This document shows positions 15,321 through 19,512 of a DNA stretch of 64,000 nt, piece after piece. This DNA comes from Ornithinicoccus hortensis (lineage in GTDB: Bacteria; Actinomycetota; Actinomycetes; Actinomycetales; Dermatophilaceae), in the NCBI RefSeq assembly GCF_006716185.1, contig NZ_VFOP01000001.1, positions 2,790,001-2,854,000 on the forward strand, read 5' to 3'. The position numbers and the translations under genes are program-made. The stretch's first letter is position 1; every line of letters starts with the position of its first letter. The notes under the pieces were generated by a model. It had not been told where the DNA came from, ran no database searches, and saw only the letters and a list, made by a program, of their open reading frames with translations.

Positions 15321-15370
15321 GACACGGTCACCCCTGGGACACAGTCACCCCTGGACACAGTCACCCCTGG
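15321..15370. repeat. Three tandem 17-bp repeats at the pepN 3' end
   Basis: The unit GACAC(G/A)GTCACCCCTGG occurs three times head to tail at 15321-15337, 15338-15354 and 15354-15370. The last copy contains the stop codon and final codons of pepN. Read on the minus strand each copy gives CCAGGGGTGA, so the Gln-Gly-stop end of pepN has been duplicated twice downstream of itself. Confidence 0.8.
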
Positions 15371-18018
15371 GAGCCCTCCTCGGCCGCGGCAAGCCGCGCG
15401 GACTGCTGCGCCACGAGGGCCCGCAGCGCCAGGTCCACGTGGTCGACCACGAGCCGGCGCAGCGCCGCGGGCGCCTCCTCGTGCGCGGCCAGCCACTCCT
15501 TCCCCGCCACCACGACCGGGTGCTCCACGGGCCGCCGAAGGGCCCCCTCGGCGAGGTCCGCCCGGGGAAACAGCCCGTTGACCAGGATGGTGGCCATCGT
15601 CATCGAGCGGCTCTCCCACCACCCGGTCAGGCTCGCGAAGTAGGCCTCGGCATACTCCGCGGCCGCGGCCGCACCGGCCGGTTCGGCGAACCCTGCGACG
15701 AGCGCCCGCAACTGGTCGTTGGTGACGGACTCGTCGGTGGTGGCCCGTTCCCAGGTCTGGCGGCGGGCGGCGGCACCCGGCCGGCTAGCGACGGCCCGCA
15801 GGTAGAAGGTCCGCCCGGTCATCGTGTCGTCGTCGGCCAGTGCCGCGTCCAGGTCCACGAGCGCGATCGCGTCCTGGGCGGCCAGGGCGCGGCGCGCCGA
15901 CCAGCGCAGGTCGTCGTCCACGTCCAGGCCCTCGGGGACCCTGCTGCCGTCGAGCAGACCGCGCAGGTCGGGCACCCCGTCGGCACAGGTCGCGGTGGCA
16001 CCGATGAGGGCCTGCGCCCACACCTTCTGCAGGTCCGACCCGGCGGGTGCCTGGGCGAGCCCGGAGCGGGCGGTCGCGACCAGGTGGGCCCGCAGCTCAT
16101 CGCGCTGCTCGGCCGGGGCGTAGACCTCGACCGCCTGGGCCGCGGTCCCGAGGGCTGTCGCCACGATGGAGGCGTCCTGCTCCGCCAGGACCTGCGGCAG
16201 CGCGCGGAGGAACTCCCGGGGAGGCAGGTTCCCGTCGCGCAACGAGTTCCAGGCGATCGACCAGAGCAGTCCCCGGGTCAACGGCGACTCGATGCTCGCC
16301 AGGTGGTCCCGGACGACCGCCGCCGAGTGCGGGTCCAGGTGCACCTTGGCGTACGTCAGGTCGTCGTCGTTGAGCAGGACGAGGTCCGCGCGGTGGCCGG
16401 CTGCCTCCGGGACCTCGGTCATCTCGCCCACGACGTCCTGTTCGATCCGGGCGGTGCGCACCAACCGGTCGTCCACCAGCTCGTAGAGTCCCACCACGAG
16501 CCGGTGCGGTCGGTCGATGCGCTCGCCCGAGGAGAGCTCCACAGCGGTATGCCGGATCACCAGGCGGGTCAGGACCCCGTCCGCGCCGCGCTCCGGGAAC
16601 GGCTCCAGCTCGGAGATCCCGGCGAGCTCCAGCCAGGCACCGGCCCAGCCCGACAGGTCCCGTCCCGAGGCCCCCTCGAGGGCCGCCAGGAGGTCCTCGA
16701 ACTCGGTGTTGCCGAAGGCGTGGTCGGCGAAGTACCGGCGGGCCCCGGCGAAGAAGGCCTCCTGCCCGACGTAGGCCATCAGCTGCTTCAGCGCCGAGGC
16801 GCCCTTGGCATACGTGATGCCGTCGAAGTTCTGCCGGGCCGCCTCCAGGTCATCGACCCGGGCGACGACGGGGTGCGTCGTCGGGAGCTGGTCCTGGCGG
16901 TAGGCGAAGGTCTTGCGGTCGGAGGCGAACCGGGTCCAGGCGTCGGTGAACTCGGTGGCCTCGGCCGCAACGTGCCAGCCCATCAGGTCGGCGAAGGACT
17001 CCTTCAACCACAGGCCGTCCCACCAGCGCATCGTCACCAGGTCGCCGAACCACATGTGCGCCATCTCGTGCAGGATCGTCGAGGCCCGCCCCATCAGGTG
17101 GGGCCTGGTCGCCTTCCCCCGCGGGAGGTACTGCTCGGTGAAGGTGACCAGCCCTGGGTTCTCCATCGCCCCGATGTTGTATTCCGGCACAAAGACCTGG
17201 TCGTACTTGCCCCACGGGTAGGGGTAGCCGAAGGCCGCGTCGAAGAAGTCCAGGCCCTGCCTGGTCACCTCCAGCAGCGCCTCGTGGTCGAAGTGCTCGA
17301 CCATCGAGGCCCGGCAGAGGACGCCGAGCTCGATCTCCTGCGCGGACCCGTCGGCGCGCCGGACCGACCAGGTGTCGCCGAACCGTCGGTAGGGACCGGC
17401 CGCGACGGCGGTGATGTAGGTGGACAGCGGCGGCGTCGGCGCGAAGGTGACGGTGGCCAGGGCCCCGGAGCCGTCGGTGGTCCGGGAGGCCTCCGGCTGT
17501 CCCGACACGATCTCCCAGTCCGCCGGGGCGGTCACCACGAAGGTGAACGCGCCCTTGAGGTCCGGTTGCTCGAAGTTGGCGAAGACCCGCCGGGCGTCGG
17601 TCGGCTCGAAGTGGGTGTAGAGGTAGGTCGCGCCGTCCACCGGGTCGGTGAACCGGTGGAGCCCCTCGCCGGTGCGGCTGTAGGCGCACTCGGCCCGCAC
17701 AACCAGCTCGTTGTCCGGCGCGAGCCCGGTCACCGGCAGCCGCGCCCCGTCGTAGGTGGAGACGTCGACCGGCTCCCCGTTGAGGGTGGCCCCGAGCACC
17801 CGGTCGGCGATCAGGTCGACCCAGGTCTCCGGACCCGAGGAGGTGAAGGCGATCGTCGTGGTCGAGCCGTAGCTGTCGACGTCGGGGTCCGCGGCCCGGG
17901 CGAGGTCCAGCTCCACCCGGTAACTCTGGACCGAGACGGTCTGCGCACGGGCGGCACACTCGGCATGGGTCAGGTTGGTCGTGGGGGTCGTGGCAGTCAC
18001 GACGGACCAGTCAACCAT
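15361..18018 (-). CDS. pepN: Aminopeptidase N (M1 zinc metallopeptidase)
   Basis: The 885-residue M1 aminopeptidase removes N-terminal residues from peptides in the cytosol. The substrate-binding GAMENPG motif is followed by the zinc site HEMAHMWFGDLVTMRWWDGLWLKESFA, giving HExxH-18-E. The N-terminal beta domain (YRVELDLARAADPDVDSYGS) and the long ERAP1-like C-terminal helical domain are both present, so the protein is full length. The start is uncertain: ATG at 18018 or GTG at 18000. The second fits the usual family N-terminus better, and neither has a clear ribosome site. It is divergent from the threonyl-tRNA synthetase leader. Confidence 0.93.
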   Translation of the reverse strand: MVDWSVVTATTPTTNLTHAECAARAQTVSVQSYRVELDLARAADPDVDSYGSTTTIAFTSSGPETWVDLIADRVLGATLNGEPVDVSTYDGARLPVTGLAPDNELVVRAECAYSRTGEGLHRFTDPVDGATYLYTHFEPTDARRVFANFEQPDLKGAFTFVVTAPADWEIVSGQPEASRTTDGSGALATVTFAPTPPLSTYITAVAAGPYRRFGDTWSVRRADGSAQEIELGVLCRASMVEHFDHEALLEVTRQGLDFFDAAFGYPYPWGKYDQVFVPEYNIGAMENPGLVTFTEQYLPRGKATRPHLMGRASTILHEMAHMWFGDLVTMRWWDGLWLKESFADLMGWHVAAEATEFTDAWTRFASDRKTFAYRQDQLPTTHPVVARVDDLEAARQNFDGITYAKGASALKQLMAYVGQEAFFAGARRYFADHAFGNTEFEDLLAALEGASGRDLSGWAGAWLELAGISELEPFPERGADGVLTRLVIRHTAVELSSGERIDRPHRLVVGLYELVDDRLVRTARIEQDVVGEMTEVPEAAGHRADLVLLNDDDLTYAKVHLDPHSAAVVRDHLASIESPLTRGLLWSIAWNSLRDGNLPPREFLRALPQVLAEQDASIVATALGTAAQAVEVYAPAEQRDELRAHLVATARSGLAQAPAGSDLQKVWAQALIGATATCADGVPDLRGLLDGSRVPEGLDVDDDLRWSARRALAAQDAIALVDLDAALADDDTMTGRTFYLRAVASRPGAAARRQTWERATTDESVTNDQLRALVAGFAEPAGAAAAAEYAEAYFASLTGWWESRSMTMATILVNGLFPRADLAEGALRRPVEHPVVVAGKEWLAAHEEAPAALRRLVVDHVDLALRALVAQQSARLAAAEEGSQG

Positions 18019-18097
18019 CCCCGCGCGGTCCCCGGGCGGCTCACCCTCCGACCGGCCTGTCGTGGCGGATCTGCCGCCCCCGGGCTACAGTCGGGGG

Positions 18098-18145
18098 ATG
18101 CACCACCAGCAGCGGACGACCACGCCGGATCCTCTCCGGCGCTGA
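18098..18145 (+). CDS. Threonine-codon leader peptide of the thrS2 attenuator
   Basis: A 15-codon reading frame encodes MHHQQRTTTPDPLRR with three consecutive Thr codons (18116-18124). It is followed by RNA segments able to form mutually exclusive hairpins and then by a threonyl-tRNA synthetase gene. The -10-like TACAGT (18086-18091) ends 6 bp before the ATG, so the peptide may be read from a leaderless mRNA, although GGGGG just before the ATG could also serve. A ribosome short of Thr-tRNA would stall at the Thr run. The peptide itself is expected to have no function beyond sensing. Confidence 0.72.
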   Translation: MHHQQRTTTPDPLRR

Positions 18146-18193
18146 CTTGCTGCACCCAAGTCCCAGGCCCCGGAGCGTGACTCCGGGGCCTTT
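18124..18193 (+). promoter_or_regulatory. Transcription attenuator (threonine-sensing) upstream of thrS2
   Basis: Three pairings can be drawn. 1:2 is GCCGGA (18124-18129) with TCCGGC (18135-18140), inside the leader frame. 2:3 is CTCCGG (18134-18139) with CCGGAG (18170-18175). 3:4 is the perfect 10-bp terminator GGCCCCGGAG (18166-18175) with CTCCGGGGCC (18181-18190), loop CGTGA, followed by TTT. Stalling at the Thr codons would mask segment 1, free segment 2 to pair with 3 and block the terminator. This is the classic ribosome-mediated attenuation layout. The pairings are read from sequence, the regulation is inferred. Confidence 0.7.
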
Positions 18194-18234
18194 CCCGTCC
18201 CTCCTCGCGCTCCACCCACCACCAGGAGCACGAA

Positions 18235-19512
18235 ATGCCCGACCGACCGTCCGACGAGCCGCTGGACCACCGCGACCTCAACCACGACCTGCGCGTCTTT
18301 GCCACCGACCCCGCCATCGGTTCGGGGTTACCCCTGTGGCTGCCCGCTGGGGCGACCATCCGCCACGAGCTGGAACGGTTGGCCCGTGACATCGCCCGGC
18401 GGGACGGGTGCGAGGGGGTCTACTCCCCCGTCCTGGCCAAACGCGCCCTCTTCGAGCAGTCCGGGCACTGGGACAAGTTCCACGAGGACATGTTCCCGCC
18501 GATGTCGCTCGGCGGGGGTCCCGACGGCGAGGACCTGGTCCTGCGCCCGGCGAACTGCCCGCACCACGCGAAGATCTACGCCTCCTCCCGGCACTCCTAC
18601 CGGGAGCTGCCGGTGCGCCTCAACGAGTTGGCGCCGATGTTCCGCGCCGAGCGCTCCGGGGTGCTCTCCGGCCTGAGCCGGGTCCGCCAGATCAACCTCG
18701 ACGACACCCACGTCTTCTGCCGACCGGACCAGGTGGCGGCCGAGGCCGCGCGGGCGCTGCGCTCGGCACTGGAGGCGCAGCGGATCCTCGGGATGCGGGT
18801 CGACTACGTCCGGCTCTCCCTCGGCGACGACAGCGGGGCCTTCCTGGGTGCGCCCGAGCAGTGGGAGCACGCCGCCGCGGCGCTGCGGGAGGCCGCGGCC
18901 GAGGTCGACCTCGATGCCCTCGGTATGCCGTTGCACGAGGTCGGGGGCGAGGCCGCCTTCTACGGGCCCAAGCTGGACCTGCAGGTCCGGGACGGGCGTG
19001 GCCACGAGGAGACCATCGCGACCGTGCAGCTCGACTTCGTGCAGCCCGAGCGCTTCGACCTCGGCTACGACGCCGCCGACGGCAGCCGGGCACGCGTGGT
19101 GATGATCCACCGCGGCACCGTCGGCTCGATGGAGCGTGTCGTGGCCGCGCTGCTGGAGCGCTACCAGGGGCGGCTCCCGCTCTGGCTGGCGCCGGTCCAG
19201 GTCTGCGTGCTGCCCGTCTCCCCCGACCAGGACGGACCCGCCCGTGACCTGGCCGAGCAGCTGCGGGGAGCCGACCTGCGGGTCCGGGTGGAGCACGAGG
19301 GGACCCTCGGGGCGCGCATCCGGTCCGCCCGGGTGCGCCGGGACTGCCTGGTCGCCGTGCTCGGGGCGCGCGAGGTCGCCTCCGGCAGCGTCGGGGTGAC
19401 CGACGTGGCCGCCGGCTTCCGCGGCCCGGTCGGGCGGGAGGAGTTCCTGCGGATCCTGGGCCGGGCGTATGCCGCACGGCTGCCCCGGGTGCCCTGGCAG
19501 CAGGCCGGCTGA
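18235..19512 (+). CDS. Editing-less threonyl-tRNA synthetase paralogue
   Basis: The 425-residue class II synthetase contains only the catalytic core and anticodon-binding domain of ThrRS. The TGS and editing domains (about 240 residues in E. coli) are absent. The zinc ligands are kept: Cys108 (NCPHH), His159 (DDTH) and His292 (IHRGTVGSMER). The substrate Tyr is in FYGPKLD. Compared with E. coli, Gln381 is Leu155, and the borrelidin-pocket residues Leu489 and Leu493 are Gln270 and Phe274. It probably charges tRNA-Thr as an inducible back-up enzyme. A normal thrS is presumably elsewhere. It is preceded by a Thr attenuator and followed 114 bp later by a DHA2 exporter. Confidence 0.85.
   Translation: MPDRPSDEPLDHRDLNHDLRVFATDPAIGSGLPLWLPAGATIRHELERLARDIARRDGCEGVYSPVLAKRALFEQSGHWDKFHEDMFPPMSLGGGPDGEDLVLRPANCPHHAKIYASSRHSYRELPVRLNELAPMFRAERSGVLSGLSRVRQINLDDTHVFCRPDQVAAEAARALRSALEAQRILGMRVDYVRLSLGDDSGAFLGAPEQWEHAAAALREAAAEVDLDALGMPLHEVGGEAAFYGPKLDLQVRDGRGHEETIATVQLDFVQPERFDLGYDAADGSRARVVMIHRGTVGSMERVVAALLERYQGRLPLWLAPVQVCVLPVSPDQDGPARDLAEQLRGADLRVRVEHEGTLGARIRSARVRRDCLVAVLGAREVASGSVGVTDVAAGFRGPVGREEFLRILGRAYAARLPRVPWQQAG

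Follow-up and report, generated by a model that had tools for sequence, protein, structure and literature searches.

The stretch of DNA considered here (the window: 64,000 nucleotides of the Ornithinicoccus hortensis genome, contig NZ_VFOP01000001.1, positions 2,790,001 to 2,854,000) contains a gene for a second threonyl-tRNA synthetase, called ThrRS2 below, preceded by a short open reading frame (ORF) with a run of threonine (Thr) codons and by a set of alternative hairpins. The ThrRS2 gene (18235-19512, + strand, as are all window features below unless otherwise stated) encodes 425 amino acids matching Pfam PF00587 and PF03129, and has the catalytic and anticodon domains only; its match to TIGR00418 covers positions 172-558 of 565. 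By Pfam, the editing region (tRNA_SAD) is absent from the window's ThrRS2 and present in the genome's other ThrRS, a 684-amino-acid protein with the second additional domain. The initial annotation of this DNA had called the gene a second threonyl-tRNA synthetase, and both its domains and the separate 684-amino-acid enzyme bear this out.

The leader ORF (18098-18145) begins with ATG at 18098, has 15 codons, ends with TGA at 18143-18145, and would encode MHHQQRTTTPDPLRR. NCBIfam models gave no match for any of four leader peptides tried. Direct reading agrees with the initial annotation that three of its codons in succession specify Thr (ACG ACC ACG, 18116-18124), and the amino acid that would be sensed is, as also proposed there, the one used by the enzyme downstream. 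The arrangement is not peculiar to the window. A total of 129 ThrRS2 loci were collected; 123 are distinct after removal of six same-genome duplicates (L038, L091, L057, L049, L093 and L117, which counts of 124 include), and 120 of these have intact upstream DNA. Three loci at contig ends (L087, L142, L175) were dropped, L063 was left out of tests requiring Thr-Thr-Pro, and L103 was checked apart from the main set. The leader is found in 120 of the 120 distinct intact loci, with at least three Thr codons in 118.

A putative -10 hexamer, TACAGT (18086-18091), ends 6 nt upstream of the leader ATG. A TANNNT hexamer ending 6-8 nt upstream of an in-frame start is present in all 124 ThrRS2 loci (duplicates included), compared with 0-3 of 124 when the test was shifted to 11 other offsets; wherever several in-frame starts were available, the leader start was picked with the hexamer in view. 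A sigma-70 scan found no full promoter at the leader. Given a -10 hexamer so close to the ATG, transcription is expected to begin at or adjoining its A, and the leader is probably leaderless in the usual sense, with a transcript starting at its own initiation codon.

Downstream of the Thr codons lie four arms. Arm 1 (CGCCGGA, 18123-18129) begins within the last Thr codon and pairs with TCCGGCG at 18135-18141, in arm 2 (CTCCGGCG, 18134-18141). Arm 2 can instead pair, through CTCCGG at 18134-18139, with CCGGAG at 18170-18175, the part of arm 3 (AGGCCCCGGAG, 18165-18175) that would form the antiterminator. Arm 3 can also pair over its full length with 18181-18191, in arm 4 (CTCCGGGGCCT, with a short T tract, 18181-18193), as a predicted terminator hairpin. 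The mutual exclusion of pairings 1:2, 2:3 and 3:4, claimed in the initial annotation, is confirmed by the sequence, by folds and, for 2:3 and 3:4, by covariation; its "perfect 10-bp GC terminator" followed by TTT needs amendment, the TTT being present (18191-18193) and the stem being 11 bp long. A further helix, P0 (GCAGCGG at 18109-18115 with TTGCTGC at 18147-18153), joins the first leader codons to the stretch past arm 2; in a fold of 18098-18160 it lengthens hairpin 1:2 around the Thr codons, which bulge out once it forms. Other pairings take over from P0 in a fold of a longer window RNA. In the fold of the window leader, a small hairpin (GACTTG/CAAGTC, 18144-18162) sits inside the antiterminator loop.

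The stability of these segments was compared with that of 200 dinucleotide shuffles. The fold of 18098-18200 has a z-score of -4.57, with no shuffle equally stable. For its parts, the 1:2 hairpin region with its outer stem gives z -2.83 (1/200 shuffles equally stable), the 2:3 antiterminator with its small inner hairpin -19.7 kcal/mol and z -2.52 (5/200), and the 3:4 terminator -24.4 kcal/mol and z -4.31 (0/200).

Very probably, the element controls a backup ThrRS by ribosome-mediated attenuation of transcription, the signal being charged tRNA-Thr and chiefly the species that decodes ACG. From the layout we infer the following course of events. The transcript would start at the leader's own ATG. 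If the leader is left untranslated, arm 2 would be held by arm 1 and P0, hairpin 3:4 would form, and transcription would end; a ribosome finishing the leader would cover arm 2 at the stop codon, again letting 3:4 form and ending transcription. When charged tRNA-Thr is short, the ribosome would wait on the Thr codons, covering arm 1 and the 5' arm of P0; arm 2 would then pair with arm 3, the terminator would be blocked, and ThrRS2 would be transcribed. Since the ThrRS2 gene contains few Thr codons and hardly any ACG, its product could be made even when the sensed tRNA carries no amino acid.

These steps were modelled in silico with the ribosome on Thr codon 2 and an assumed reach of 13 nt, for 120 loci including five duplicates. 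Antiterminator 2:3 forms before arm 4 is made in 109 of the 120 loci (52/56 non-redundant) when the ribosome masks the RNA, and in one (0/56) when there is no ribosome; in the full transcript 3:4 forms in 115 (55/56). For the window, the model gives 6.0 expected 2:3 pairs under masking, and 3:4 forms with 10.9 of its 11 pairs when the RNA is complete. The model thus predicts that a ribosome stationed at the regulatory codons covers arm 1 but leaves arm 2 free. The positions concerned are well kept: arm 1 starts 1-3 nt inside the Thr run in all 118 distinct loci, and the spacing is constant.

Comparison between species supports the pairings to different degrees. Arm 2 occurs in all three reading frames (22, 42 and 54 of the 118 distinct loci), which marks it, by this comparison of sequences, as selected as RNA. 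Among 54 non-redundant loci (eight of the 124 lacking a CCGG core were excluded), 28 carry T/A/T and 17 carry C/G/C as the first base past the core in arms 2, 3 and 4; at the second position, two Nocardia leaders (L054 and L067) have T/A/T instead of the usual C/G/C; and at the third, only 22 of 54 can pair 2:3, which limits the shared helix to about six pairs. When arms were permuted between species, arms 2 and 3 from the same leader paired better (-15.11) than permuted ones (-13.64, standard deviation 0.25; 0/5000 as good, 59 non-redundant leaders). The same leaders gave -13.27 for P0, against -11.36 (standard deviation 0.32) kcal/mol when permuted, again with 0/5000 as good. For P0 this was also 0/5000 in the family and named-loci set (40 leaders) and in 20 very different leaders, and 0 or 9/5000, varying with segment length, in the class-genome set (18 leaders); a control region gave z 0.1 to 2.1. 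L037, with ATGCGATTTGTTCAG opposite CTGACGAGTCGCAT, is an example of P0, and the helix is weak in several leaders (e.g., L047 and L067, at -6.5 kcal/mol). In a model-fitted alignment of 57 sequences, which is biased towards structure, pairing in helices 1:2 and 3:4 reaches 92.7%, and double-change cells number 41 vs. 17.0 in shuffles; six pairs show a double change vs. 3.7 in shuffles (20/500 shuffles reach six), mostly in helix 3:4. The check proposed with the initial annotation, alignment of the leader across related genomes, therefore came out in its favor: the Thr run and the stems are conserved across Actinomycetota, with compensatory change in 2:3 and 3:4, and 1:2 is nearly invariant, with little to show by this test.

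Several points weigh against attenuation of this kind. The T tract is short across loci (median three T in 8 nt, 118 loci), and an automatic terminator pattern scan did not call hairpin 3:4. Helix 1:2 has almost no covariation, four of its seven pairs being invariant, and the permutation tests remove the effect of relatedness only in part. Two loci have just two Thr codons (L075, TTP; L063, TTAP). In the folding model, 2:3 is weak in 11 of the 120 loci, four loci with a doubtful choice of terminator were left out, and the window leader has 2.4 expected 2:3 pairs before arm 4 even without a ribosome.

The codons used provide a separate line of evidence. In the leaders of the 118 distinct loci, 330 of 353 Thr codons are ACG; the proportion is 50 of 904 in ThrRS2 genes (the 93 out of 123 distinct ones for which coding DNA was available) and 77 of 267 in canonical thrS from the window's family (20 genes, homologous part only; Fisher p 1e-22). 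ACG is missing altogether from 67 of the 93 ThrRS2 genes, and from the eight Thr codons of the window's own. Matched by family, ThrRS2 has 5 ACG in 110 Thr codons (11 genes) vs. 177 in 555 for whole canonical genes; flanking open frames, whose reading frames are provisional, have 990 in 2784. The effect is concentrated in the Thr box: its G- vs. C-ending share is 0.06 in ThrRS2 and 0.30 in canonical genes, the largest gap of eight four-codon boxes, and the seven others differ by at most 0.13 (the next largest being CGN, 0.46 vs. 0.33). Thr content is also low in ThrRS2, at 2.44%, compared with 3.55% in canonical enzymes and 5.07% in weaker ThrRS relatives.

Part of the leader's preference is structural. 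All 115 of 115 loci have ACG as their third Thr codon, a choice imposed by arm 1; codons 1 and 2 are mostly ACG as well (100 and 108 of 115), with no pairing of the arm 1 type. Another structural cause was considered, pairing of the Thr codons with a GTCGT tail past the terminator, and rejected as a conserved partner: 28 of 116 tails contain the motif, which exceeds the number in shuffled tails (mean 9.0, standard deviation 2.8) but is not much above its frequency past other terminator-like hairpins of the same loci (9 of 49). In the window fold, 18114-18118 does pair with CGTCC past the terminator, and such pairing is possible in single loci. The genome has one tRNA-Thr each with anticodon CGT, GGT and TGT, among 46 tRNA matches. 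With this tRNA set, the codon split suggests that the leader probably listens to the ACG readers and that the gene relies on the ACC reader.

The leader follows ThrRS2 closely. ThrRS2 is found in 11 of 59 genomes of the same family, the window's genome included, and in at least 60 of 394 genomes of the class (match at E up to 1e-100), a lower bound because two further genomes (G144 and G186) have ThrRS2 but fall outside that list. Among the best 80 of 330 named loci, 59 are ThrRS2, in hosts including Saccharopolyspora, Nocardia, Rhodococcus, Nocardioides, Promicromonospora, Isoptericola, Humibacillus and Flexivirga; metagenome-assembled genomes labelled Acidimicrobiia and Nitriliruptoraceae are also hosts. 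The leader pattern is absent from all 24 loci tested that carry canonical thrS (20) or another class II synthetase gene (4), and from all 21 loci of weaker ThrRS relatives (39-42% identity; Saccharibacteria, Chloroflexi, Patescibacteria and unlabelled bacteria). The latter (L095-L102 and L104-L116), which include metagenome-assembled genomes of the three named groups, have a Thr content about twofold that of ThrRS2; one of them, L111, has a bare run of ACN triplets 73 nt from the end of the scanned stretch.

Searches from the other direction, starting from the leader, gave similar results. A pattern composed of the -10 hexamer, ATG, Thr run and CC(G or C)G has a single match in the 64-kb window (both strands), namely the leader, and none in 20 mononucleotide-shuffled windows (one strand); it recovers 122 of 128 ThrRS2 loci, missing L063, L087, L089, L124, L142 and L175. 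A covariance model (R1) built from 49 leaders, the window's included, scores the window site at 77.9 bits vs. 27.5 for the next best site in the whole genome. Over 197 genomes of the class it gives 30 matches in 29 genomes, 28 of them upstream of ThrRS2: 26 at loci from the class ThrRS2 list, and two more (L191 and L192). Of the remaining two, one is apparently spurious and the other lies upstream of a DAHP-synthase-like gene with an aromatic leader.

Some side observations belong here. By eye, the last-named site (L193, reverse strand, G234:C6:173552-173651) has a short ORF that looks leaderless, MQQNFWRFYGYRPTGTVAPPVLR, and a GC hairpin after it, upstream of the DAHP-synthase-like gene; its sequence makes it a candidate for an attenuator built like the ThrRS2 leader but responding to an aromatic amino acid. 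The window's genome has 30 weaker model matches up to E 10 (at most 27.5 bits), one being the reverse strand of the leader site. Six of the weaker matches were inspected: L180 (20.5 bits; G000:C1:2522549-2522672, minus strand) shows successive Thr codons where they would be expected, L181 shows them at other positions, and the remaining four lack them. In Saccharopolyspora sp. HNM0986, the terminator hairpin and first ThrRS2 codons occur a second time (L040:462-640), some 0.9 kb 5' of the intact leader, and this copy has the appearance of a decayed duplicate. In the window itself, translations read by eye place a divergent aminopeptidase-like gene (15361-18018, minus strand) on one side and a transporter-like gene 3' of ThrRS2 on the other.

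A second structure lies between the terminator and ThrRS2. Arm 5 (18205-18213) can pair with arm 6 (18225-18233), which overlaps the Shine-Dalgarno sequence AGGAG (18224-18228). ThrRS2 starts were located in 119 of the 124 loci, and 54 non-redundant ones were tested: the hairpin's own pairing averages -15.03, against -12.38 (standard deviation 0.34) when permuted (0/5000), with z -8.0 compared with -0.8 to +2.7 for four control partner regions. In the window, the region in which 18205-18213 pairs with 18225-18233 has z -3.12; across loci, the stability of the region relative to shuffles is modest (mean z -0.92, with 25 of 54 loci below -1), a further point on the unfavorable side.

This hairpin raises the possibility that control is mainly translational, the leader ribosome altering downstream folding so as to expose the ThrRS2 Shine-Dalgarno, and that 3:4 is no true terminator. 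A covarying hairpin over the Shine-Dalgarno and a weak T tract are what such a scheme would lead one to expect, but modelled Shine-Dalgarno accessibility does not differ between four upstream states of the leader (median 0.25 in each, 54 loci), so that the model gives no link between the Shine-Dalgarno and the position of the leader ribosome. A direct connection by pairing of arm 3 with arm 5 was tried and dropped: no permutation did as well in the whole set (0/5000) and few did in the family and named-loci set (5/5000), but the result was marginal in the class-genome set (158/5000), and the complementarity may be mere likeness of arm 3 to a Shine-Dalgarno sequence. Mainly translational control is accordingly judged unlikely.

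The weak T tract could also point to Rho: leader stalling or completion would set the access of Rho to the transcript, with the hairpins secondary. Few intrinsic terminators are predicted in actinobacteria, according to the available text of PMC2965389. Rho access would, however, leave the covariation of 2:3 unexplained, and it does not sit well with arms 3 and 4, which covary and form a very stable hairpin; it is considered very unlikely.

Could the nascent peptide, rather than codon supply, stall the ribosome? The leader peptides widely share TTTP, usually with D or E as the next residue, as might be expected of an arrest sequence TTTP(D/E). The P and the D or E, however, are dictated by the RNA arm CCGGA, the N-terminal half varies between loci, and the later residues change with reading frame: the peptide after TTTP is PDPLRR, PDPSGA.. 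or PExVPAR according to clade, because arm 2 occupies all three frames. Nor would an arrest peptide predict that ThrRS2 genes avoid the leader's codon, and its chances appear slim indeed.

A T-box or a ThrRS-bound operator in place of ribosome sensing, as known for thrS elsewhere (a T-box in Bacillus, a ThrRS operator in E. coli), can be given almost no credence: no Rfam family reaches its gathering score in the 64-kb window, no T-box appears at E up to 1 in 18000-18300 (where the sole match is to a human long non-coding RNA model, E 0.25, far below cut-off), and neither type of control has an in-frame series of Thr codons after a leaderless start.

If the locus is an attenuator sensing charged tRNA-Thr, what might the codon split and the Shine-Dalgarno hairpin add? 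One proposal, for which the odds seem about even, is a codon-partitioned emergency synthetase: the leader would sense ACG-reading tRNA-Thr, the enzyme would have shed ACG and much of its Thr so as to be translated when that tRNA is empty, the Shine-Dalgarno hairpin would act as a second gate, and sensor and escape codons would have co-evolved across the actinobacterial lineage. Should this be true, the system may amount to inducible protection against ThrRS inhibitors. The arrangement also suggests that the editing-less ThrRS2 may serve in times of threonyl-tRNA shortage, which could bear on natural inhibitors of ThrRS.

The mechanism type is classical, and the initial annotation's view that its use for an actinobacterial ThrRS would be new holds only in part. 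A leaderless Thr leader peptide, MKRVRPFLETTPGFVPAR (thrL), was published in 2021 upstream of thrS (SLIV_19410) of Streptomyces lividans TK24 (PMC8079986); going by its leader, SLIV_19410 would itself be a ThrRS2. By eye, 13 of 18 residues of thrL are identical to the ThrRS2 leader of L167, MKRAQPFLTTTPDSVPAR, and Streptomyces-like loci carry TT(T)P..VPAR peptides as thrL does. As published, thrL has two threonines and one hairpin; the lack of a U-rich stretch past it and the unclear termination count against the proposed mechanism. The available text of that account makes no mention of an antiterminator, of conservation, of a Shine-Dalgarno hairpin or of a codon split (PMC8079986). Among the matches listed from one open-access library, none reports the system as a conserved one, its codon split or its Shine-Dalgarno hairpin, the last two not having been searched for specifically in thrS, and subscription papers, among them a 2010 large-scale attenuation survey that may list thrS, lying outside that library. 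A peptide resembling the Thr leader motif, ATTTPGA, is also part of the metL leader published for S. lividans, which precedes the methionine uptake genes metNIQ (PMC8079986, Table 4). The window peptide has TTTP and the RNA layout in common with the Streptomyces-like leaders, and ends differently, in PDPLRR.

Among better-known systems, the T-boxes of Bacillus thrS and thrZ offer a functional parallel: there too a second ThrRS is induced by uncharged tRNA-Thr, but the tRNA is sensed directly, without a leader ribosome. Leaderless short ORFs with a run of codons for a single amino acid also have a counterpart in mycobacteria, where polycysteine ORFs, as Canestrari is said to have described in 2020, are leaderless; these concern cysteine and operonic genes. 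Classical attenuators upstream of aminoacyl-tRNA synthetase genes are likewise on record in actinobacteria for other amino acids (leuS and trpS of Streptomyces; PMC1262725). In its available text, the same 2005 survey reports no Thr attenuator candidate in actinobacteria and did not find classical T-boxes in the phylum, which may control a backup synthetase by a leaderless Thr leader travelling with the gene.

A close relative in mechanism would be the thr operon of E. coli, in which a leader ribosome senses Thr codons and alternative hairpins follow; that leader is not known to be leaderless and controls biosynthesis genes, whereas the ThrRS2 leader precedes a synthetase. The two also differ in codon: the E. 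coli thr leader uses ACC, as noted in the available text of PMC1183508, which describes the selective-charging theory, and the ThrRS2 leaders use mostly ACG. The codon split between leader and gene could serve as a natural test, outside E. coli, of that theory of how attenuator codons are chosen.

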